Position numbers and translations under genes: made by a program. Below the pieces are notes generated by a model that made no database searches, was not told the DNA's origin, and saw nothing but the letters and a program-made list of their open reading frames with translations. This document shows positions 1,955 through 47,776 of a DNA stretch of 64,000 bases, piece after piece (the first letter of the stretch is position 1; each line of letters begins with the position of its first letter). Source of the stretch: Candidatus Methylomirabilota bacterium (GTDB lineage Bacteria; Methylomirabilota; Methylomirabilia; Methylomirabilales; Methylomirabilaceae). The stretch spans positions 1 through 64,000 of the forward strand of contig JAGWQH010000029.1 in assembly GCA_028870115.1 (NCBI GenBank), in the 5' to 3' direction.

Positions 1955-2971
1955 ATGAACAGCGCTCTGCAACGGTTCAAACCTGCGCTACGATCCCTCC
2001 TCATCCTGTTCGGGCTTGTCGGAATCGTCTGGCTCTGCGGGAGGATCGGATGGCCGGCGATTCGGGCCAATATCTCCGTAATTGGAAAATGGTTCTTTCT
2101 GCTGGTGGTTCTGTACCTCTTTGCGCAGATGGCCTTTATGTCCGGATGGTGGGTCGTGATCGGGTCCAGGGCCAGACGGATCGGGTACTGGCGGATGTTC
2201 GGCGTCTATCTTGTCGGCGATTCTATCAACTATTTTGTTCCGCCCGCCAACCTGGCCGGAGAACCTGTCAAGGCCCATCTGCTGAGCAGATCGGTCGGAT
2301 TCAGCCGATCGGTGACCTCGATCATGGTTCACAAACATGCGGAGATTGTGGCGCAGGTCTTATTCCTCAGCCTGGGCTTGAGCATCGCGGTGGCCCAGTT
2401 CGCGCTTCCTACCGGACTTCGAGTTGCTGCGCTTATGCTTCCGGCTGGGATGGGGGTTGTCGTGGTGGCCGCCTTCTGGGTCCTGAAGAGGCGGGCCTTC
2501 GGGACATTGATCCGTGGGCTGGTGAAAATCGGGATCAAACCGGAGCAGATCAAGCCCGAATGGCATGCCACCGCGTCGTTGGATCGGTGGCTTGCCCTCT
2601 TCTACAAGACCCGTATGCCGGTCTTCTACTGGGCGACGTTTCTGTGCCTGCTGGGATGGTGCGGCGGTCTGCTCGAGACCTACGTGGTGCTGCAGCTACT
2701 GTCGGCGGAGCCGAGCCTCGGGACGGCAGTGGCAGTGGAAAGCCTGGCGATGATGCTGAATACCATCATCTTCTTTATCCCGGGGCGGGTCGGGAGCGCT
2801 GAAACGGTGAGAGTCGCAGTCTTTTCGGTCTTAGGACTGCCCGCCGCGCAGGGCGCCGTCTATAGCATTATTCGCCGGGGAAGAGAAGTTACCTGGGCTA
2901 TTCCCGGCCTGCTCATCCTGCTCGCAATCAAGATGGGAATCGGAAGAGCGCCCGGGGAGGTTGCCGGCTGA
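1955..2971 (+). CDS. LPG-synthase-TM / HpnL-like flippase-type membrane protein
   Basis: The product has about 338 residues and seven to nine hydrophobic segments, with SINYFVPPANLAGEPVKAHLL in the middle and NTIIFFIPGRVGSAE near the end. This is the pattern of the lysylphosphatidylglycerol synthase TM family (PF03706; includes HpnL and the glycolipid-linked UPF0104 proteins), which move or help move lipids across the inner membrane. I chose the ATG at 1955; a TTG/ATG pair at 1880-1885 would overlap the tldE gene by 30 bases. Its stop overlaps the ATG of the next gene by one base (TGATG), so it is translationally coupled to the headgroup cluster that follows. Hopanoid transport (HpnL) is an alternative role because hpnN and hpnM lie 8 kb downstream on the other strand. 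Confidence 0.7.
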   Translation: MNSALQRFKPALRSLLILFGLVGIVWLCGRIGWPAIRANISVIGKWFFLLVVLYLFAQMAFMSGWWVVIGSRARRIGYWRMFGVYLVGDSINYFVPPANLAGEPVKAHLLSRSVGFSRSVTSIMVHKHAEIVAQVLFLSLGLSIAVAQFALPTGLRVAALMLPAGMGVVVVAAFWVLKRRAFGTLIRGLVKIGIKPEQIKPEWHATASLDRWLALFYKTRMPVFYWATFLCLLGWCGGLLETYVVLQLLSAEPSLGTAVAVESLAMMLNTIIFFIPGRVGSAETVRVAVFSVLGLPAAQGAVYSIIRRGREVTWAIPGLLILLAIKMGIGRAPGEVAG

Positions 2972-3657
2972 TGGCCATCCAGAGATCGGCGAAGGCGGTC
3001 CTGCTCGACTTTGGAGGCACCCTTGATGCCGACGGGATTCCCTGGAAAGACAGATTCTATCCGCTCTACCTCGCTGAACAGGTGGGGGTAGACCGCGATC
3101 GATATGAACGGGCGTTCTATGCTGCCGATGATGCGCTGGTGGCGCGGCGACTTTCTTGCTCGTTTCGGGAGAGCGTCTTGCTCCTGGTCACAGGCGTGCT
3201 GGAAGCGTTGAATGTCACTGATTCGGGATTGGCATTGCGCCTGTGCGACCGGTTTCTGCAGGACTCGTTGGATAAGATTCGCGTCAATCTCGAGATCCTG
3301 CGCGAGCTGTCGGCGCGATTTCGGCTCGGCATCGTCTCGAACTTCTACGGCAATCTCGAACAGGTCTGCATCGAGACAGGACTTGCCCCATTCATGAGCG
3401 TAATGGTTGACTCGGCCTGCGTCGGGTTTATCAAGCCGGATCCCAGGATCTTTCAGGTCGCGCTGACGCAGTTGCAACTGGAACCGAGAGAGGCGATATT
3501 CGTCGGGGACTCATTACCTCGAGATATGATGGGGGCGAAGGGCCTCGGGATGCCTCATGTCTGGCTTATCTCGGATCACTCCGGTTCTCTCGCGCCCTGC
3601 TGCCCAGACGATCTCACCATCAAGTCCTTCGCAGATCTTCAAGAGGTGCTCCTGTGA
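2971..3657 (+). CDS. HAD-superfamily phosphatase
   Basis: A 228-residue HAD-IA hydrolase. Motif I is LLDFGGTLD (residues 11-19), motif II is IVSNFYGN, motif III lysine sits in GFIKPDPRIF and motif IV is AIFVGDSLPRDMMGAKGLGM. The first motif reads DFGGT, so the acid/base Asp of the usual DxDGT is a Gly; DFGGT variants occur in the family, but this may change the preferred reaction. In this cluster the obvious job is removing a phosphate from an inositol-phosphate intermediate, for example phosphatidylinositol phosphate or an inositol phosphate. It overlaps its neighbours by one base upstream and four bases (GTGA) downstream. Confidence 0.75.
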   Translation: MAIQRSAKAVLLDFGGTLDADGIPWKDRFYPLYLAEQVGVDRDRYERAFYAADDALVARRLSCSFRESVLLLVTGVLEALNVTDSGLALRLCDRFLQDSLDKIRVNLEILRELSARFRLGIVSNFYGNLEQVCIETGLAPFMSVMVDSACVGFIKPDPRIFQVALTQLQLEPREAIFVGDSLPRDMMGAKGLGMPHVWLISDHSGSLAPCCPDDLTIKSFADLQEVLL

Positions 3658-36082: not shown

Positions 36083-37900
36083 GTGGTGACAAGGAAAAAA
36101 GCGGGTCAAAGAGATGGTACGTTGATGGTTCATAGGAATTCTGCACTACGCGAAGAGCTTGTGAGACACTTTTCAGCAAAGGGCGAACTGCTTCGGCGAG
36201 AGTGGGTTCGCCGGATGACGGCACAGGGCCTGCTGGAGGGTCTTACCCCAGACGAGATCGAGATCGAGTCCGGCACGCTCTCTGCCATCGTTCTGGAGTG
36301 CGTGGAGACCGGAAAGTATGATTCAGCCTTGGCCTATGCCCATCTCAAGGCGAAGCAGGGGGTGCTTGGAGGGCAGACTCCGGAACAGATCATCGATTGC
36401 CTGGCGTTGCTGCATGATGTGTACAGGCAATCTCTCTTCAGAAGGTATCGGGGTGAGGCGGACCGGCTGGCCAAGCTCCTCGATCTCTACGCCCCCGTAG
36501 CGCACCGCCTCCAGACCCTGATCACACTCACGTTCGTAGAGGAACGGGAGCGGATGAGCAAACGAGAAATGAACCAGCTTCGGATGCTGGTGAGGGCGGG
36601 GATGATCCTCAGTGCGAAGCTCTCGCTTGAAGAGGTGTTGCAGCGTATCGTCAACATGGCCTGTAAGTTGATGAGCGCCAAATACGCCGCTCTCGGCGTC
36701 CTGGGTGGGAAGGGCGGCCTCAGCCGGTTCATCACGGCGGGTATTGACGAAAGTACCAGGCAGGCCATCGGCTCTCCGCCGGTCGGAAAGGGGGTCCTGG
36801 GCGTCCTGGTACGTGAGGGAAAGCCCCTTCGTTTGAAGAACCTGACAGCCGACCCGCGCGCGCACGGGTTCCCGCCTCATCATCCCGCGATGCACTCCTT
36901 CCTGGGCGTACCCGTCGCGTCAAAAGGAAAGGTCCGTGGGAATCTCTATGTGACGCAGAAGCAGGGCGCCGCCGAGTTCAGTGAAGAGGATGAGACCCTG
37001 GCCATTACGTTAGCCACTCAGGCCGCCATTGCCCTCGAGAACGCCAGCCTGTATGAGGAACTGCGCCGCTCGTACGACGAGTTGAAACAATCGCAGCAGT
37101 TGCTGGTACGGCAGGAGAAGCTCGCCTCGCTTGGTCGATTGGCAGCCGGCCTGGCCCATGAACTGAATAATCCCCTCGCTTCTGTAGCCGGCTTCGCCGA
37201 GGCCCTCCAGCGACGGGTTGAGGCCGAAGAGATCAGCAGTCCTTCCGCTCTTGCGGAGTGGGGACAGTATGTCACGATGATCCAAGACGAAACGGCCCGC
37301 GCAGCGGCCATTGTCCGCCGCCTGCTCGATTTCGCGCGACAGCGCGAGCCTACCTTCAGCCTGGTGGATGTATATGACGTGGCGTTACACGCGGTCTCGT
37401 TTGTAGAGCGGCAAGCCAGTCTCGAAAATCAGCGGATTGTCGTCGTCCCATTTCCGGATGGAAGTGTAGTTCAAGCCGATGCGCAGATGCTTCAACAGGT
37501 CTTCCTCAACCTTTTAACCAATGCGCTCGATGCCATCGAGAGCGGTGGGGAGATCCGCATCGACGCCCATCACCGTCGTGATGTCGTCGGGCCGGCTTGT
37601 GAACACGCATGGCTCGATGTGTTCGTATCCGATACGGGTAGCGGGATCTCGCCAGAGAACCTTTCAAGGATCTTTGACCCTTTCTTTACCACCAAGGAGG
37701 TGGGCAAAGGGACGGGCCTTGGCCTTGCCATTAGCCAGAGCATCGTCGAGCAGCATAAAGGCAGCATCGAGGTGCGAAGTAGGGGAGTTGGAAAGGGCAC
37801 GGTGGTCATCGTCAGTCTGCCGCTGGCCGACCGCAGTGAGATGGATGGGAAGCGGCCAGATCGCCGCAGGACGGGGGGTGAAGATGCCTCAAGCGGGTGA
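36083..37900 (+). CDS. GAF-domain sensor histidine kinase
   Basis: 605 residues without clear membrane spans, so a soluble sensor. Residues 15-150 form a helical domain resembling RsbRD-type regulators; 165-330 a GAF domain (SLEEVLQRIVNMACKLMSAKYAALGVLG, GKGVLGVLVREGKPLRL); then HisKA with the phospho-His in GRLAAGLAHELNNPLASVAGF; and an ATPase domain (FLNLLTNALDAI, DTGSGISPENL, GKGTGLGLAIS). It overlaps the response regulator by 17 bases, so they are a pair. The ligand is unknown. Confidence 0.9.
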   Translation: MVTRKKAGQRDGTLMVHRNSALREELVRHFSAKGELLRREWVRRMTAQGLLEGLTPDEIEIESGTLSAIVLECVETGKYDSALAYAHLKAKQGVLGGQTPEQIIDCLALLHDVYRQSLFRRYRGEADRLAKLLDLYAPVAHRLQTLITLTFVEERERMSKREMNQLRMLVRAGMILSAKLSLEEVLQRIVNMACKLMSAKYAALGVLGGKGGLSRFITAGIDESTRQAIGSPPVGKGVLGVLVREGKPLRLKNLTADPRAHGFPPHHPAMHSFLGVPVASKGKVRGNLYVTQKQGAAEFSEEDETLAITLATQAAIALENASLYEELRRSYDELKQSQQLLVRQEKLASLGRLAAGLAHELNNPLASVAGFAEALQRRVEAEEISSPSALAEWGQYVTMIQDETARAAAIVRRLLDFARQREPTFSLVDVYDVALHAVSFVERQASLENQRIVVVPFPDGSVVQADAQMLQQVFLNLLTNALDAIESGGEIRIDAHHRRDVVGPACEHAWLDVFVSDTGSGISPENLSRIFDPFFTTKEVGKGTGLGLAISQSIVEQHKGSIEVRSRGVGKGTVVIVSLPLADRSEMDGKRPDRRRTGGEDASSG

Positions 37901-39242
37901 ACGAAGCGGTGTGACCCGCGTGCTTGTTGTCGATGACGAGCGACTCATCCGGCTGCTTATGGAAAAGGAGCTGCCACGGGCGGGGTATATAGTCACCTGC
38001 GCCGGAAGCGGCGAAGAGGCCATGGAGCAGTTGCGCACGCGAGAGTTCGATGTCGTCCTCCTCGACCTCAAGATGCCCGGAATCGGTGGGATGGAGGCGC
38101 TCCGCCGGATTCGGGAATCCGGGACTTCGGCGGAGGTCGTCATCCTGACCGGTCACCCCGATGTGGACAGCGCCATCAACGCGATGAAGCTGGGTGCCTA
38201 CGACTACCTGACCAAGCCCTTCAAGCTCTCCGAATTGGAGGAGGTGCTGCGGCGAGCCGCGGAGCGAAAGCGCCTGCGCACGGAGAATACGGCCCTGCGC
38301 CGTATGATCGCCCAGCGCGAACCCGCGCCTGTTATGATCGGTCACAGTCCTGCCATGGCCTCCCTGTCGGCGACCGTGCGACGGATTGCGCCGAGTGAGG
38401 CGAGCGTCCTCATACAGGGAGAGAGCGGGACCGGCAAGAGCCTGGTGGCCAAGGCCATTCATATGGCGAGCCCTCGAGCCGGCGGGCCATTCCTGATCAT
38501 CAACTGCAGCGGCTTTCAGGATCCGCTCCTGGAGAGCGAGCTGTTCGGGCATGAGAAAGGGGCATTCACCGGCGCCACCAGCGTCAAAATGGGTCTCTTC
38601 GAGGTGGCAGGAGGTGGGACCCTCCTGCTGGATGAGGTGGGGGAGATGAGCCCGGCCATGCAAGCCAAGCTCCTTCAAGTACTCGACACTAAGGAGCTGC
38701 GACGGGTTGGAGGCACCCGCGTGCACCGGGTAGATGTGCGCATCATCGCCGCCACCAACAAGGACCTGGCCCAGGAGGTACGAACAGGCCGGTTCCGCGA
38801 GGATCTCTATTATCGACTGAACGTGGTCAGCTTGACGCTGCCGTCCTTGCGTGAGCGGAAGGAGGACATCCCGCTCCTCATTGAGCATTTTTTGACGCAA
38901 TTCCAGGTAACCGGTCAAAAGGCCAAGACCATCTCCCGGGAGGCGATGCAATCGCTGGCGGACTACCCGTGGCCGGGCAATGTGCGAGAGCTTGCGAATA
39001 CGATCGAGCGCCTTCAGATTCTCTCCTCCGGCGACATCATCGGCCTTGAGGATCTGTCGCCCAACATCCGGTTTCCGAGCGGATCGGCGGCCGGCCCCGC
39101 CTCGCTGGCGGAAATGGAGCGGCTGCACCTCATCCGGGTGCTCGATCATACGGGGGGCAAAAAGATGCAGGCCGCGCGACTGCTCGGCATCGACCTCAAA
39201 ACCTTGAATAGCAAAATTAAGCGGTACAACATCTCCCTGTGA
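37884..39242 (+). CDS. NtrC-family sigma-54 response regulator
   Basis: 452 residues: receiver ([16 protein letters not shown], phospho-Asp in [11 protein letters not shown]), AAA+ domain (Walker [22 protein letters not shown] loop [14 protein letters not shown], Walker [12 protein letters not shown]) and C-terminal Fis-type helix-turn-helix ([20 protein letters not shown]). ATG 37884 lies inside the kinase gene after GGGGGGTGAAG. It would switch on sigma-54 promoters in answer to the upstream kinase. No -24/-12 promoter is seen nearby. Confidence 0.93.
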
Positions 39243-39316
39243 AGGGCCGGCTCTTTGCCGAGTTAAAGGGGCTGGAGGTCAAGACGGTGGGGCGAGGTAA
39301 TTTGACACCTTATGAT

Positions 39317-39331
39317 TGACTATGTTAGTCA
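39317..39331. promoter_or_regulatory. Palindrome upstream of the antitoxin gene
   Basis: TGACTA-TGT-TAGTCA is a perfect six-base-arm dyad 28 bases before the antitoxin start. A TTGACA at 39302-39307 is close but no well-spaced -10 is seen. An operator for the toxin-antitoxin pair is likely. Confidence 0.55.
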
Positions 39332-39359
39332 TATATAAACAACCATGGAGGACATATTT

Positions 39360-39653
39360 ATGAAGGCCGTTGCTGTGTCTGAATTGAAAGCCTCGCTGAG
39401 CAGATTTCTCGCCGCAGTCAAGGAAGGCGAGGAGGTCATCGTAACTGATAGGGGGAAGCCGGTCGCCAAGCTGGTCCCTGTCACACGGGACAAAACAGAT
39501 CGGCCGCCCCATCTCCTGGCACTTGAGCGCGCGGGAATGGTCAAAATCGGAACAGGTGGACTACCCCATGGATTTTGGGACCTTCCACGACCGAAAGACC
39601 CCAAGAATCGTGCCCTGGAGGCACTCTTGCAAGAACGAGCGGAATCCCGGTGA
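39360..39653 (+). CDS. Phd/YefM-family antitoxin
   Basis: 97 residues. The N-terminal part, MKAVAVSELKASLSRFLA, AVKEGEEVIVTDRGKPVAKLVP, is the Phd/YefM DNA-binding fold. The C-terminal part (residues 50-97) would bind the toxin. ATG 39360 follows GGAGG; an ATG at 39345 in the same frame is less likely. GTGA overlap with the toxin. It would neutralise the PIN toxin and repress the operon through the upstream palindrome. Confidence 0.88.
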   Translation: MKAVAVSELKASLSRFLAAVKEGEEVIVTDRGKPVAKLVPVTRDKTDRPPHLLALERAGMVKIGTGGLPHGFWDLPRPKDPKNRALEALLQERAESR

Positions 39654-40075
39654 AATTCTGGGACGCTTCGGCCCTTATTCCCCTGTACTTTGAAGGTCCG
39701 CAGACCAAGGCCATCCGTGCCATCGCGAAAGCCGACGGGGATATCGTCGCCTGGTGGGGAAGCCCCATTGAATGCTTTTCAGCGTTTGCACGGCTGCGGC
39801 GGGAGGGGTTCTTGACGCCTCAGGGGGAGGATCAGATTCGTCACCTGCTGGTCCTGCTGTCAGATGCATGGACAGAGATTGAGCCGAGCGCCGAAGTACG
39901 GGTCATTGCCGCACGGCTTCTCCTCGCGCATCCTTTACGCGCGGCTGATTCCCTTCAATTGGCTGCCGGTCTTGTATGGGCCGGCACAACACCCAGGGGT
40001 CACCACTTTGTCTGTCTCGATCACAGGTTGAGGGACGCAGCCAGAACTGAAGGGTTTGCGCTGCTTCCTGCATGA
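39650..40075 (+). CDS. vapC: VapC-family PIN-domain toxin
   Basis: 141 residues. The acidic PIN residues are visible: KFWDASALIPLYF (first Asp), SPIECFSAFARL (Glu), HPLRAADSLQLAAGL (Asp) and VCLDHRLRDAA (Asp). These enzymes cut tRNA or other RNA. GTG 39650 overlaps the antitoxin stop by four bases, which settles the start against a longer frame from 39575. Confidence 0.88.
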   Translation: MKFWDASALIPLYFEGPQTKAIRAIAKADGDIVAWWGSPIECFSAFARLRREGFLTPQGEDQIRHLLVLLSDAWTEIEPSAEVRVIAARLLLAHPLRAADSLQLAAGLVWAGTTPRGHHFVCLDHRLRDAARTEGFALLPA

Positions 40076-40090
40076 CCCCTGGAACTTGAC

Positions 40091-40147
40091 ATGTCGAATA
40101 GTGTGACTGAAGGTAAGGCCTTGAAAGTCGCAGTGGTGGGGGCGTAG
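40091..40147 (+). pseudogene. Possible 18-codon stub of a Rossmann protein
   Basis: An ATG frame translates to MSNSVTEGKALKVAVVGA and then meets TAG. The ALKVAVVGA strand looks like the start of a dehydrogenase such as a Gfo/Idh enzyme. It is short enough to be chance and is offered only because other stubs lie close by. Confidence 0.25.
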
Positions 40148-40171: not shown

Positions 40172-40432
40172 ATGAAAAGAGAACCAGTGAAGAAAATTGA
40201 TGACGAGCTTCGGGCCGAGTACGATCTATCCCAACTGAAGGGAGGAGTCCGCGGCAAACACTACAAGCGGGCTATGGCAGGGACGAACCTCGTCCTGATT
40301 GAACCTGCTCTGGCGAAAGCGTTTCCTGATTCTGACTCAGTGAATCGGGCCTTGCGCCTCTTGCTTGACGCCGCCAGTTCGGGCACAATGCCATCGCGCC
40401 AGCGCCGCACGCGGCTTAAACGGACCGCTTAA
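40172..40432 (+). CDS. Small protein of a conserved, unnamed family
   Basis: 86 residues: DDELRAEYDLSQLKGGVRGKH, YKRAMAGTNLVLIEPALAKAFPDSDSVNRALRLLL, then a basic tail. I have the impression of a widespread hypothetical family found beside toxin genes, where it would act as antitoxin. No toxin partner follows here; the next 200 bases hold only a truncated gene end. No clear ribosome site is seen. Confidence 0.65.
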   Translation: MKREPVKKIDDELRAEYDLSQLKGGVRGKHYKRAMAGTNLVLIEPALAKAFPDSDSVNRALRLLLDAASSGTMPSRQRRTRLKRTA

Positions 40433-40470
40433 CAATGCGGCCCCTTAACGCGAATTAGCCACCCGCACGA

Positions 40471-40629
40471 ATGCCGAAAGAAGCCAAAGCAAGGATTCTG
40501 ATCAACGACCTTCTCCGAAGGTCGCGCTGGCGCTTCTTTGATGATGAGACCAGCTCCGCCAACATTGCGCAGATCGCCCACGGCGACAACACAGCGTCTT
40601 GTCAGTCAATGACGTCCTCGGAGCAGTAG
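40471..40629 (+). pseudogene. N-terminal stub of a type I restriction HsdR-like gene
   Basis: A 52-codon frame begins MPKEAKARILINDLLRRSRW, RFFDDETSSANIAQ and then stops. The start looks like that of DEAD-helicase HsdR subunits (MxKEAxARIxINxLLxxxGWRFFDD). After about 30 codons the similarity seems to end, so this is a fragment. It stands just before the helicase-nuclease gene and suggests an insertion or deletion at a restriction locus. Confidence 0.45.
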
Positions 40630-40633
40630 CACC

Positions 40634-41833
40634 ATGAGCATCCAACCAAACATGCAACCTGTGCGCGAGCGTTTGACCAAACTCTTCGAGTTCCTCAAAG
40701 CCTACACAGACCTGCGCTACCCGCCGGTTCGGAATATTGCACAACAGCCGCACTCCCTTTGGTTGAAAGACCTTCCTGTCCATCCATCCGTCGAGTTGTT
40801 TCGAGACGCAGGTAAGACTGAGGATAAAGTCGAAGATAGTGATATCGTGCTGCGGCTGGTGCGCCCGGTCGTTACGCAATGCCCTCCACCGCCTTCAGTG
40901 CTGTCTGAATGGCTGAAGCCTGGCTGGCAGGATATTGCGGGGAAAGTCGAAATCCAACCAACCCGCAATGGCACCAGCAAGGATGGTAAAACGTTCATTG
41001 AGCGGTTTGATGCGGACTCACGACGTTCTTCGCTCCTCCACGCGTGGCAGCAGCAACGTGAGCAGTGGGTGACTAACGAGCGTCCAGCTCGGCAATCAAT
41101 GATACTTTTCCAAACCGTATACGAGTGGTATGGCATTCAGGAGCGGGAAGGCGAAAGGATTGAGTTGGTGGTAGGTGATGGTCTCTTGCGATGTCGTGAT
41201 GTTGGCGGCGAGTTTTACCATCCAGTCCTTCTGCAAAAGTTGGAACTGGAATTCTATCCAGAGAAACGGCAGCCGCAGTTTATTTTCCGAAAGCGAGAGC
41301 AACCACCAGAACTTTATACAGAGTTTCTCCGTATTCTTCCCGGAGTTAACAGCCAACAGCTTGCTCGTTGCGCGGACGAAATGAGGAAATCGGAATTTGC
41401 TCCTCTTGGAGTAGACGACACCCACGGTTTTCTTCGCCGCCTCATCCAGGGACTTTTTCCTAGCAGTGGTGCCGTGCTTGAGAATGACCAGCCTTCAGTA
41501 AGCAGACGAACTGGTTCTTCATCGCAGTCCGATCTAACACTCTTCAATCAGCCACACACCATGCGAGAGCAGGACAAACCGACCATAGAGCGCCGGCCAG
41601 TCATTTTCATGCGACAGCGACGAACGGGCCCAGCTAACGTCTTCGATTTGGTGTTGGAGGACATTGCAGGCCGTGAGGCCTTCCCTCCCTCGTTGCTGCA
41701 GATCCTTGGACTGGAGGCGAGCGCTGTCAGCCAAACAGAATCTCATGATAGCGAGCTGTCTATAGGAAATGAGGATGACGACGTTCTCTTGAGCAAGCCC
41801 GCCAATCGTGAACAGCTTGAAATCGCAAAGTAA
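40634..41833 (+). CDS. N-terminal part of a giant SF1 helicase-nuclease (before an in-frame stop)
   Basis: 399 codons that end in TAA at 41831-41833. The next codon continues in the same frame with the helicase P-loop, and ANREQLEIAK just before the stop is the usual lead into that motif (a Q-like motif). So this is the front of one about 1,544-residue protein cut by a single nonsense codon. The N-terminal region itself is not a known domain by eye. If the stop is real, this half would be made alone and lack ATPase motifs. Visibly lower GC than flanks. Confidence 0.7.
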   Translation: MSIQPNMQPVRERLTKLFEFLKAYTDLRYPPVRNIAQQPHSLWLKDLPVHPSVELFRDAGKTEDKVEDSDIVLRLVRPVVTQCPPPPSVLSEWLKPGWQDIAGKVEIQPTRNGTSKDGKTFIERFDADSRRSSLLHAWQQQREQWVTNERPARQSMILFQTVYEWYGIQEREGERIELVVGDGLLRCRDVGGEFYHPVLLQKLELEFYPEKRQPQFIFRKREQPPELYTEFLRILPGVNSQQLARCADEMRKSEFAPLGVDDTHGFLRRLIQGLFPSSGAVLENDQPSVSRRTGSSSQSDLTLFNQPHTMREQDKPTIERRPVIFMRQRRTGPANVFDLVLEDIAGREAFPPSLLQILGLEASAVSQTESHDSELSIGNEDDDVLLSKPANREQLEIAK

Positions 41834-44800
41834 TTGACGCGTAGAGGTTGTGTGCTCGTGCAGGGTCCCCCAGGTACAGGAAAGACGCACACAATCGCGA
41901 ATCTTCTCGGTCACTTGTTGGCGCAAGGGAAACGTGTGCTTGTCACTGCCCATACGCCCAAGGCGCTGCGCGTACTCCGCAAAAAAGTCGTCGAGCCGCT
42001 TCAGCCGCTCTGCATCAGCGTTCTTCACAATGACAAGCAGAGCCAGGAAGAGCTTCAAACCTCAGTTCAGAAAATTCACGTTCGCCTGAGCGACGACGAC
42101 CGTCTCTTGGAACGAGATGCGCACCGTTTGCGTGAGGAGCGAAAGCACATTCTCGAATCATTGGGCGATGGGCGTCACCGGCTTCTCAACGCCAGGCAGG
42201 ATGAAATTCGCGATGTCGTCTTCGGCGGGAAAGCCATGCGACCGATTGAGGCGGCCAAACGTGTGAAAGAAGGTGCTGGCAAGGACGACTGGATTCCCAG
42301 TCCAGTGAATCTCGGTGAGGTGCTTCCCCTTGCTCATGCCGAGGTTGTAGTGCTGTATCAAACGAACGCTCGTGTCTCTCTCACAGACGAACGTGAACTC
42401 GCAAGCAGCCGGCCTGAGTTGGGTACTTTACCTACGCCAGGGGAGTTCCGTTCTGCTGTTGAGGAGATGACCGCTTTGGCTGGCCAGAATCTCCGGCTAC
42501 GCGAGGAACTATGGGATGACACGCTCGAGCCTGTAGATTTGACCGAGTTTGACCGGATGTTAGAACTGGCCAGCAAAACGATTGAGTTTCTGCGTGATAG
42601 CGCGCCGTGGCAGCTATTGGCCATCCAGGCGGGAAGAGACGGTGAGACCGCGCGTTGTGAATGGGATTCGCTGGTCAAGAAAATTGAAGATACTTGGCGT
42701 GAGGTGCATGAATGTCACGCACTGGTCATTGAACACGGTCCGAATCTATCTGACCCACGCCCTCCGCACGAACTCTTGTCATTGGTGGAAGAAATTATTC
42801 GGTACCAGGAAGCAGGCAACTCATTCGGTTTGCTCGCCAGGCTGACCAGGCCCCATTGGTTTGAGTTTAAGGCAAAGGTTCGCGTTGGCAGCCGCGCAAT
42901 AGAACTGAGCGATGCGACGCACTTGCGCGCGGTGAAGGCGCTTCTACGTATGCAACAGCTTCGCTCTGAGTTGGTTGAACGCTGGGAACGTCAGATGGCT
43001 TGTCAGGGAGGTCTCGCGTGTTCCGATCTCAGCGATCGTCCAGAGCAGGTCTGTAAACAGTTCGTGCCGCAAATCCGGATGTGCTTGGAATGGCAGGCCC
43101 GTACTTGGCAGCCGCTCGAAAGCGAATTTCATCGCCTCGGTTTCGGATGGTCTGCATTTCTTGACTCCACTGCTCCGGAGTCTGGAGATAACGCTGAACT
43201 TCGCCGAATTCGCCGTGCGGTGCTTGGCGACCTTGGTCCGATTCTTCAATCGCGGAGCGGATGGCTGCGATACAACAGGCTACTGGCGACGTTGCGTACA
43301 TGGTACGAGCAGTTGCCCAAGTCAAATCTTCCAGAAGCTCAAGCGACAAAGCGATTGCGACGAGCGATGAATGATCGCTCGGCAATGGACTATCAATCCG
43401 CATACGAGGAATTGCTACGGCTGAAGAGCCTTGAACAAGATCTCACGCGACGACATGAGCTCCTGAACCGACTCAGTCGGTCCGCTCCGGCTTGGGCGTC
43501 CGCGATTGACAATCGGCTGGCAGAGCATAGTGAGTCACAGCCGCCGGGCGACCCGAACGCCGCTTGGGAATGGAGACAGCTTCATAACGAATTGGAAAGA
43601 CGGGCGAGCGTGTCACTTGATCAGTTGCAGCAACACATTGAACGGCTCAGTCAACAACTTCTTGAAACCACTGCGTATCTTGTCGAAAAACAGACATGGA
43701 TGAATCAAATCCGGCAGACTAACCCCACGCAGAAGAGGGCGCTTGGTGCTTACGCAGCGATGCGAAATAAGCTAACAAAAACTGGTAGAGGAGTTCGCGA
43801 CGCCGAGCTTCTGGCTGCTGCTCGCCGGGAGATGGCGACGGCTAAAGATGCCGTTCCCGTTTGGATTATGCCTCTGGCCGAAGTGGCCGACACCTTTGAC
43901 CCAACAAAGACAAGATTTGATGTGGTGATCATCGATGAGGCCAGCCAATGTGACCCGACCTCGCTATTTGCCTTGTATCTGGGCTATCAAACTATCATTG
44001 TGGGCGATGACGAACAGGTAACCCCGGTCGCCGCCGGCGTCGATATGGAAGAGGTAACTAAGCTTATTCGTGTCTTTCTTGAAGGCCTGCCTTTCAAGGA
44101 ATTGTATGACGGCACAACCTCTGTCTACGACTTGGCTCAAATTGCCTTCGGCGGTGTAATTCGGCTAACTGAACATTTCCGGTGTGCGCCCAATATCATC
44201 GCTTTTAGCAACAACCTATCCTATAAAGGTGAAATAAAACCACTACGTGAGGCTTCGTCCGTTCCACTCAATCCGCACGTCGTTCACTATCGAGTTGAGA
44301 AAGGGCACGATCGTGGCGACAACGTCAATGAAGTCGAGGCAGAAACCATTGCCTCGCTCATTTGCGCCGCTATTGAGCGGCCGGAGTATACGAAAAATGA
44401 TTTAGGGGAGCCGACAACCTTCGGCGTGGTCTCGCTCGTCAGCGACAAACAAGCCTCAAGAATTGATAGCCTCCTTCGACAACGTATGGAACCTGCCGAG
44501 TATCGACGACGACAGATTCTATGCGGCGACTCCGCGCAGTTCCAAGGTGACGAGCGAGACGTCGTGTTCCTTTCGGTAGTGGACTCTCCACCTGAACAGC
44601 CACCGCTCTATATGCGGCAGGAAGGGCCGAAGAGAATTTTTAAGAAACGCTTCAATGTCGCCGCAAGCCGTGCGCGCAACCAGATGTGGATCGTGCACAG
44701 CCTGAATCACGAAACGGATCTTCAGGTTGGCGACTATCGCCGCCGCATCATCGAACATGCCCTCGACCCGGAGGCGTGGGAACGCGAATTAGAAAAACGA

Positions 44801-45271
44801 TTGACTAAGGTGGACCCTCGCTCGCAGGTGTTCGAGGGAACCGTTCTGCGACGGCTGATGGAGCGCGGCTACAACGTCCTTCCGCAATACCGAGCGGGGG
44901 CTTACTACATTGACTTGGTGGTCATTGGAAGTGGAAAGCGCTTGGCCATTGAGTGCGACGGCGAGCAGTTTCATGGCCTGGAGAAACTCCAAGAAGACCT
45001 CGAACGAGAGGCCATCCTGAAACGATGTGGCCATTGGACGTTCGTTCGCGTTCGTGGCAGCCTTTTCTTCCGTGATGAAGAACGTGCCTTGAAGTCGGTG
45101 TTCAGGCGTTTGCAAGAATTAGGCATTGCTCCAGAGCTTGCCACCGGGAAATCTTCATCTGCTCAGAGTCAAGCCGATTCTGTTGAGCAGGTAATTCGTC
45201 GCGCCCAAGAATTGAGGGCCTTATGGCATCCTGAAAGGCAAGCCGACGAAACAGCTACCAAGCACTCTTAA
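41834..45271 (+). CDS. SF1 (DNA2/NAM7-like) helicase with C-terminal DUF559 nuclease domain
   Basis: 1,145 codons in frame with the piece before. Helicase motifs: Walker A [21 protein letters not shown], motif II [12 protein letters not shown], motif III [39 protein letters not shown], and motif VI [18 protein letters not shown]. A long helical insert fills residues 100-620. The end is a DUF559/Vsr-like nuclease: [25 protein letters not shown] (D-x..E-x-D core). Such proteins belong to antiphage defence. A start at TTG 41834, directly after TAA, has no ribosome site. Either the gene is dead, read through, or restarts here. Confidence 0.75.
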   Translation: [1145 protein letters not shown]

Positions 45272-45284: not shown

Positions 45285-45455
45285 CGTTTGTACAGCCTTT
45301 TCATGGCTTGTACGGATTTGGAGACCGAGCGGGCGTTGGTGGAGGCGAACCGGAAGCTGGTGGAGCTTTTCGAGAGGAAGATTCAGTCGAAGCTGGCGGA
45401 GATTTGGGGCCAAGGAGATGATAGCCGCAAGAATGATACGCTTCCTTTCGGCTAA
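45273..45455 (+). pseudogene. C-terminal remnant of a type I methylase/specificity gene
   Basis: 60 codons ending DLETERALVEANRKLVELF, ERKIQSKLAEIWG. This helical end is typical of type I restriction-modification methylase or specificity subunits, where it forms the last coiled segment. Only the end remains; the upstream sequence is the helicase gene. With the HsdR stub on the other side, it points to a lost type I system. Confidence 0.5.
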
Positions 45456-45616: not shown

Positions 45617-45624
45617 AGTTGCGC

Positions 45625-46284
45625 ATGAGAACCATCAAGGACCTGCCGGAACATAGCCGCCCACGCGAGAAACTGCGGGAGAAAGGCGCGTCCGCCCTTA
45701 CCGACGAGGAGCTTGTCGCGGCAATTCTTGGCATGGGAACGGCGGGCGTCGACGTGCGTACCATTGCCCGGCAGGTGGCCAATCTCATCCGCGAGCACAA
45801 GGTCGGATTGACGCTCGATCACTTGCGGGCTGTTCCCGGCATGGGACTCGCCAAGGCCGGTCAAATCCTGTCGGCATTTGAACTCGCCCGCCGTCACTTA
45901 CTCAAGGATACGGTCAAGATCATCGTCGCCCAGGATGTTCTGCCATTGGTGGCCGACATTGCCGGGAAACAGCAAGAGTATTTCATCTGCATTTCACTCA
46001 ACGGCGCAAACGAGGTTATCGAAAAGCGCGTGGTCACGATCGGCCTTCTCGACAAAAGCCCGGTCCATCCCCGAGAAGTGTTCGCGGATGTCATTGCCGA
46101 CCGCGCGGCAGCCGTCATCTTTGCGCACAACCACCCATCCGGCGAACTTCAACCGAGCGAGGCGGATCTTCGCATGCACGAGCAGTTGACCGAGGCCGGG
46201 AAGATTCTCGGACTTCGTGTCCTGGATCACCTGATAGTAACGCGGAAAGGCTACTTCAGCTTTCAGGAAGCCGGTTTGATTTGA
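45625..46284 (+). CDS. radC: RadC/JAMM-domain protein
   Basis: 219 residues. An N-terminal helix-hairpin-helix region (LTDEELVAAILGMGTAG, LRAVPGMGLAKAGQILSAFEL) is followed by the JAMM metalloprotease-like domain with FAHNHPSGELQPSEADLRM, the complete metal motif. RadC proteins are linked to DNA repair and often lie on mobile or defence islands. ATG 45625 is preferred; TTG 45619 is in frame. Confidence 0.92.
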   Translation: MRTIKDLPEHSRPREKLREKGASALTDEELVAAILGMGTAGVDVRTIARQVANLIREHKVGLTLDHLRAVPGMGLAKAGQILSAFELARRHLLKDTVKIIVAQDVLPLVADIAGKQQEYFICISLNGANEVIEKRVVTIGLLDKSPVHPREVFADVIADRAAAVIFAHNHPSGELQPSEADLRMHEQLTEAGKILGLRVLDHLIVTRKGYFSFQEAGLI

Positions 46285-46867: not shown

Positions 46868-47776
46868 ATGAAGGTGGCGGTGGTGGGAGTGGGGGCAGTG
46901 GGGGGCTACTTCGGTGGTCTGCTGGCCAAGGGTGGTGTCGATGTCACATTCATCGCCCGCGGCGAGCGCCTGAAGGCGCTCAGGGCGAAGGGCCTCACGG
47001 TCAAGAGTTGGAAGGGGGACTTCTCCGTCCGCGTCAGCGCTACTGATGAACCGGCGGAGGTTGGTTCCGTCAACTTGGTCCTTTTCTGCGTGAAATCGTA
47101 CGATACCGAGTCGGCTATTCGCCAGGCATTCCCCATGATTGGGCAGCAGACCGACGTTCTGTCGCTTCAGAATGGGATCGACAACGAGGAGAAGATTGCG
47201 TCCCTCATCGGTAAGGAGAAGGTCATAGCGGGGGTCGCCTACATCGGGGCGAGCGCGCCGGAGCCCGGAGTGGTCCTCCACCAGGAGAGCGGGAAGATCG
47301 TATTCGGAGAGCTCGACGGGGGCGTCAGCGAGCGGGTTGTCAGGCTTAAAGCGTTCTTCGACCGATACGGCCTATCCGCTGAAGGCTCCCCTGACATGAA
47401 AAAAGTCCTGTGGGCGAAGCTTGCCTGGAATGCCCCTTTTAACGCAGTCAATACACTGGTCGGCGGCCCCGTCAAGGCCATCATCGAGAACCCCCACACC
47501 CTTGAGCTGGCAAGGCGGGTGACGGAAGAGGTCGTCACCCTGGCGAACGCTTCAGGGGTCAGCCTTGCTTTTGAAGAGGTTTGGGCGCGGAATATTCGGT
47601 TCTCGCAAGGGTACGACGTCAAGACCTCAATGCTTCAGGACCACGAGGCGGGCAAGCCTTTGGAGTATGAAGCCTTGAATGGCGTCATCATCAAAAAGGC
47701 GGCCGAACACAGTCTTCAGGCGCCCTACAACTTCACCCTCTACGCCCTCCTGTCGGCGCTTCAGATTACAAGCTGA
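46868..47776 (+). CDS. panE: 2-Dehydropantoate 2-reductase (ketopantoate reductase)
   Basis: 302 residues. KVAVVGVGAVGGYFGGLLAKGG is the NADPH site, VNLVLFCVKSYDT and LSLQNGIDNEEKI follow, and the C-terminal domain has the catalytic Lys in VLWAKLAWNAPFNAVNTL and Glu in PLEYEALNG. It makes pantoate for CoA. ATG 46868 follows GAAGGTGAACGG. Confidence 0.92.
   Translation: MKVAVVGVGAVGGYFGGLLAKGGVDVTFIARGERLKALRAKGLTVKSWKGDFSVRVSATDEPAEVGSVNLVLFCVKSYDTESAIRQAFPMIGQQTDVLSLQNGIDNEEKIASLIGKEKVIAGVAYIGASAPEPGVVLHQESGKIVFGELDGGVSERVVRLKAFFDRYGLSAEGSPDMKKVLWAKLAWNAPFNAVNTLVGGPVKAIIENPHTLELARRVTEEVVTLANASGVSLAFEEVWARNIRFSQGYDVKTSMLQDHEAGKPLEYEALNGVIIKKAAEHSLQAPYNFTLYALLSALQITS

Follow-up and report, generated by a model that had tools for sequence, protein, structure and literature searches.

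The interrupted frame and its chromosomal site

The window, by which we mean the whole 64-kb stretch of DNA that was analysed, carries a helicase-nuclease gene (40634-45271, + strand) whose frame is open throughout except for one TAA codon (Table 1). As the earlier note had described, two ORFs lie in one register with TAA alone between them. Across 4.6 kb there is neither a frameshift nor a second stop, and the 3' half is present in a single copy in the genome. Several other pairs of adjacent ORFs in the window share a frame, hence such a register is not unusual in itself. The four pairs that were checked turned out to be complete separate genes (nadA/nadC, secA/thiolase) or a CoA ligase and an unnamed ORF, so the shared register alone proves nothing. 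The helicase-nuclease pair is special because relatives align collinearly across the junction as one chain.

Table 1. Features of the helicase-nuclease locus and its surroundings (window coordinates)
Feature	Position	Strand	Remarks
Response regulator, left border of hotspot	37521..39242	+	recombination boundary with G001 at ~39060, inside the 3' end
Phd-type antitoxin	39345..39653	+	Pfam PF02604, E 3e-11
PIN-domain-like toxin partner (putative)	39650..40075	+	sequence reading; no match in Pfam
86-aa ORF	40172..40432		orphan-antitoxin-like by reading; no family match; 100% in G001
hsdR 5'-end remnant (type I restriction subunit)	40466..40570	+	85% identity to intact hsdR head of sibling G013
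5' part of helicase-nuclease frame	40634..41833	+	399 codons, ATG start; N-terminal domain ending with Q motif
Q motif NREQLEIAK	41804..41830	+	N391, E393 and Q394 invariant in 13 family members
In-frame TAA	41831..41833	+	glutamine in the five closest relatives covering the position; sense residue in all others examined there
3' part of helicase-nuclease frame	41834..45271	+	1,145 codons; encodes RecA1 (Walker A onwards), a large helical insert, RecA2 and the C-terminal nuclease
Walker A GPPGTGKT	41864..41887	+	motif inspection
Helicase motifs II (DEAS), III (GDDEQ), IV region, V, VI	43922..44689	+	motif inspection
REase_MTES_1575 (Vsr-like PD-(D/E)XK) nuclease domain	44831..45112	+	Pfam PF18741, E 2e-25
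hsdS 3'-end remnant (LETERALVEANRKLVELFERKIQSKLAEIWG...)	45313..45409	+	also in siblings G005, G007 and G009; three times in G013
radC-like gene within island (putative)	45619..46284	+	sequence reading
PanE/ApbA-type reductase (putative), right border of hotspot	46868..47776	+	sequence reading

The site between the two border genes is variable. In siblings G008, G010 and G012 it is empty or nearly so, the PanE/ApbA-type gene directly following the response regulator, and in sibling G013 it is occupied by a type I hsdR, a fused hsdM-S, PDC-S06, SIR2, HerA and PDC-M24B. In the window the helicase gene is closely bracketed by an hsdR head on its 5' side and an hsdS tail on its 3' side; it therefore appears to have taken the place of the main part of a type I operon. 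Copies of the hsdS 3' tail of about 95 bp were also seen in L064 (10531-10627, 7994-8088 and 4705-4799), L069, L070 and L071. In G013 the tails are found at the ends of consecutive defence modules, and two are immediately preceded by a radC head fragment of 32-38 bp, as if they were marks of module boundaries or recombination scars. A defence neighbourhood was also noted around the Paenibacillus relative L009 (1185-12885), which is flanked by a DrmD-like helicase gene and a helicase gene with DrmA/DruE-type matches.

Comparison with G001, which belongs to another species of the same genus, revealed that identity jumps from about 87% to 99.9% near 39060. The high-identity stretch (2 differences in 1,832 bp) extends up to the end of the G001 contig at 40891; as this copy (G001:C167, L077) ends 940 bp before the stop, the comparison does not reach the stop codon. 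The simplest reading of the alignment would be a very recent transfer by homologous recombination whose left boundary falls within the regulator gene. Alternatively, the G001 contig may be chimeric, the contamination of G001 being 8%. The cassette shared with G001 comprises the toxin-antitoxin genes and the helicase, and G004 was 98% identical to the window over 39060-40138. The closest complete homologues were found in Omnitrophota and Verrucomicrobia bins and other family genes in the phylum were at most 49% identical, a distribution that fits horizontal descent. The helicase-nuclease gene has a GC content of 0.53-0.54 versus 0.58-0.61 in its flanks. The locus can be seen as a record, at the sequence level, of one defence cassette replacing another at a fixed chromosomal site, with hsdR and hsdS scars remaining.

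Protein architecture and the age of the stop

The gene encodes an SF1 helicase of the UPF1-like kind, in which a long insert follows Walker A and a Vsr-type nuclease is fused at the C-terminal end. Pfam AAA_11 and AAA_12 matched the C part above their gathering scores, motifs Q, I, Ia, II, III, V and VI were found, and PDB profile matches were to SEN1, UPF1, DNA2 and SMUBP-2. The insert is large, motifs I and II being ~680 residues apart. The helicase motifs and the nuclease core that the earlier note had called intact are indeed present; for the nuclease, its label DUF559 has to give way to the more exact PF18741 REase_MTES_1575 (89.1 bits against a gathering score of 38.2, profile positions 1-96 of 96), and the DUF559 profile gave no match at 1e-3. 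In its fold, however, the domain is similar to DUF559/Vsr/EDHD-type nucleases, and a low-confidence model of the C-terminal region (pLDDT 60) would be consistent with a Vsr/DUF559-type fold. It resembles 3hrl and 3r3p, the latter the catalytic domain of I-Bth0305I, with TM scores by target of 0.73 and 0.78, neither reaching E 0.001. A Pfam search of the N part gave no match, DUF4011 included. Its model (pLDDT 78) shows a helix at 129-172 and then a beta barrel at 176-220, which may be read, by topology only, as a stalk plus a 1B-like barrel; a fold search with this model against solved structures returned nothing significant.

The stop had been placed just 5' of Walker A, and Walker A does begin 10 codons past the TAA. 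The Q motif thus sits across the stop from all remaining motifs and, judging from the motif positions, a complete ATP site is absent from both halves. Because the invariant N, E and Q of the Q motif and Walker A are on different products, we infer that the interrupted allele has probably lost its function.

None of the close relatives has TAA at this codon, and every one examined at the junction has a sense residue, which is glutamine in L003, L004, L005, L006 and L011 (5/5). L003 is a single chain across the junction whose identity to the window is 82% in the C part and 80% in the N part. L004 (75% and 69%) as well as L005, L006 and L011 (74% and 65-68%) are likewise collinear through the junction, and distant relatives such as L009 also continue past it. 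A conserved split gene can be ruled out, since in the relatives a sense residue occupies the junction and the chain is undivided.

Between the window and L003 dN/dS was 0.13 for the N part and 0.09 for the C part. When changes were polarised with four outgroups, the window branch had 76 nonsynonymous and 74 synonymous changes, far from the neutral expectation of ~2.7:1 (p about 1e-8), and it is no looser than the L003 branch (64 nonsynonymous, 36 synonymous). Neutral evolution would have produced about six stops among the 150 polarised changes of the window branch. On these counts the gene has evidently been constrained until very recently. Full purifying selection on the window branch and the lack of any frameshift mean that the stop is either very recent or an assembly artefact. 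A long-decayed pseudogene is ruled out by dN/dS, the polarised changes and the absence of other lesions, which bears out the earlier argument from the intact motifs.

Recurrent single stops and their explanation

Interruptions of this kind are not confined to the window: a first impression that no relative is interrupted proved wrong when further checks found other stops. Among 50 family members with both gene ends on one contig, 7 (~14%) are interrupted by a single in-frame stop, and no two of them share the codon: the window at codon 400, L004 at codon 192, L006 at codon 4 (possibly harmless, as TTG follows), and L010, L112, L088 and L120 at about codons 154, 193, 640 and 1273 respectively, the last in L015 coordinates. 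The idea that stops occur only in the N part was dropped in view of L088 and L120. An eighth disrupted member, L132 (G680:C11:37500-44500), has its frame broken and contains an inverted segment of ~600 bp (2700-3314), the result of either an inversion or a misassembly; a weak 20-nt inverted repeat (80%) is found nearby at 2598 and 3529. We do not claim that frameshifts never occur, because L132 is rearranged and L129, L130 and L138 are partial genes. Relatives with many further disruptions, which the earlier note had named as counter-evidence, were not seen as such; apart from the rearranged one, those affected have one stop each, at other codons. In rpoB of the same phylum there were no internal stops in any match, ~57 of them near full length, though rpoB is essential and so unmatched for dispensability; HsdR, tried as another control for how often nonsense codons arise, was of no use, with two homologues only. 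A 78-residue family fragment (68% identity) is fused downstream of an unrelated gene end in L014 (6001-6234), either a relic or a chimeric contig.

The recurrence of single in-frame stops at differing codons is what is new here for this helicase-nuclease family. It is best explained if a dispensable gene has been lost repeatedly and independently, and the frequency of ~14% suggests that such independent loss is common among large helicase-nuclease defences. For the window we consider it likely, with a probability of about 0.7, that a single-gene defence enzyme was swapped into a hotspot for a type I restriction-modification operon and was then silenced by one nonsense mutation. The UPF1-like helicase fused to a Vsr-type nuclease would have replaced the type I operon recently, and the later mutation, which separates the Q motif from Walker A, would have turned it off. 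In the intact form the N-terminal domain would most likely bind invading nucleic acid, the enzyme would then translocate by ATP hydrolysis, and the C-terminal nuclease would finally cleave. Of the four options that the earlier note had offered, a very recent nonsense mutation is the best supported, the stop being absent from close relatives, the lesion standing alone and the gene being under purifying selection.

A different view is that the real gene is intact and that one base of the contig is an error or derives from a minority strain. The source genome is a fragmented draft (122 contigs, 3.93% estimated contamination), and a single change would account for everything, the rest of the gene being under purifying selection. 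Against an error of assembly, consensus or sequencing stands the recurrence of lone stops in unrelated assemblies of this family, set beside their absence from the near-full-length rpoB genes; isolated substitution errors are moreover rare in well-covered short-read contigs. We regard an artefact as rather unlikely. It is considerably harder to believe that the gene is expressed in two parts, the N part alone and a product restarted at the TTG or at nearby downstream GTGs, with the halves cooperating or the C part acting alone. The TAA and TTG adjoin, the C half is open and conserved, and 5 of the 7 family stops lie at or before codon 400. But no Shine-Dalgarno-like sequence is evident on inspection before the TTG, neither the stalk/barrel-like domain nor the invariant Q motif would be present in the C part, the relatives are single chains, and the stops of L088 and L120 would leave no working helicase.

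Read-through, or decoding of the stop as sense, could yield some full-length protein and would suit a stop that is the sole lesion, as it is in several relatives. This seems highly improbable: TAA terminates 10 of the 47 long frames in the window, including the helicase-nuclease gene itself, and among the stops of the relatives all of TAA, TAG and TGA occur, at positions that bear no relation to one another. A T after TAA moreover makes for efficient termination. Read-through and restart at the TTG, both among the earlier options, are thus disfavoured. A more speculative thought, to which we attach little weight, is that nonsense alleles are tolerated or even selected as a reversible off-state, in which a costly or self-toxic helicase-nuclease is silent and can be recovered by reversion or suppression. 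A single-stop interruption is ordinary biology, and the most likely account of the window allele is that a costly defence gene was switched off very recently. The locus would then hold a defence cassette that has recently been moving between species and was apparently switched off by one base change.

Relationship to known defence systems

Two described architectures are close to that of the window protein. In CnuH of Type III-B CoCoNuTs (PMC11090510), as in the window protein, a UPF1-like SF1 helicase carries a large helical insert behind its Walker A motif and is fused to a Vsr-like nuclease. The neighbours of the window gene are the Phd/PIN pair, the hsd remnants and radC, with no recognisable CnuB/CnuC (McrBC-type) partner among them, nor was a McrBC-like partner recognised in the flanks of L005, L009, L010, L011 and L088. 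A Type III-B CoCoNuT is ruled out by the missing CnuB/CnuC neighbours. In MTES_1575 an SF1 helicase is likewise followed by a Vsr-type REase domain (PF18741). MTES_1575 additionally has HEPN, transglutaminase and two wHTH domains (PMC3710099), whereas Pfam found no HEPN, transglutaminase or wHTH domain in the window protein.

None of the known systems compared was matched in full by the window gene. The best PADLOC match was the candidate PDC-S37 (PDLC05009), with which the helicase and the nuclease are shared; L003 matched it over profile positions 298-1368 of 1550 (E 8e-53). In the full-length comparison (E 7e-54) the N-terminal profile positions 1-297 were again uncovered, as they are even in the intact L003, and the score was ~178-181 bits for a profile of 1,550 positions. 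With Hhe (NF042953) and ProA (NF058533) the RecA2 and nuclease end is held in common (profile positions about 1180-1730), whereas the N part of the window protein is unlike theirs. The scores were 142 bits, in the C-terminal region, for Hhe and 175 bits for ProA, as against equivalog cut-offs of 2000 and 1500. An anti-phage role is predicted for the window family, the context of the window gene being a defence hotspot, and by analogy the intact enzyme would work like the single-chain helicase-nuclease defences Hhe, ProA and PDC-S37.
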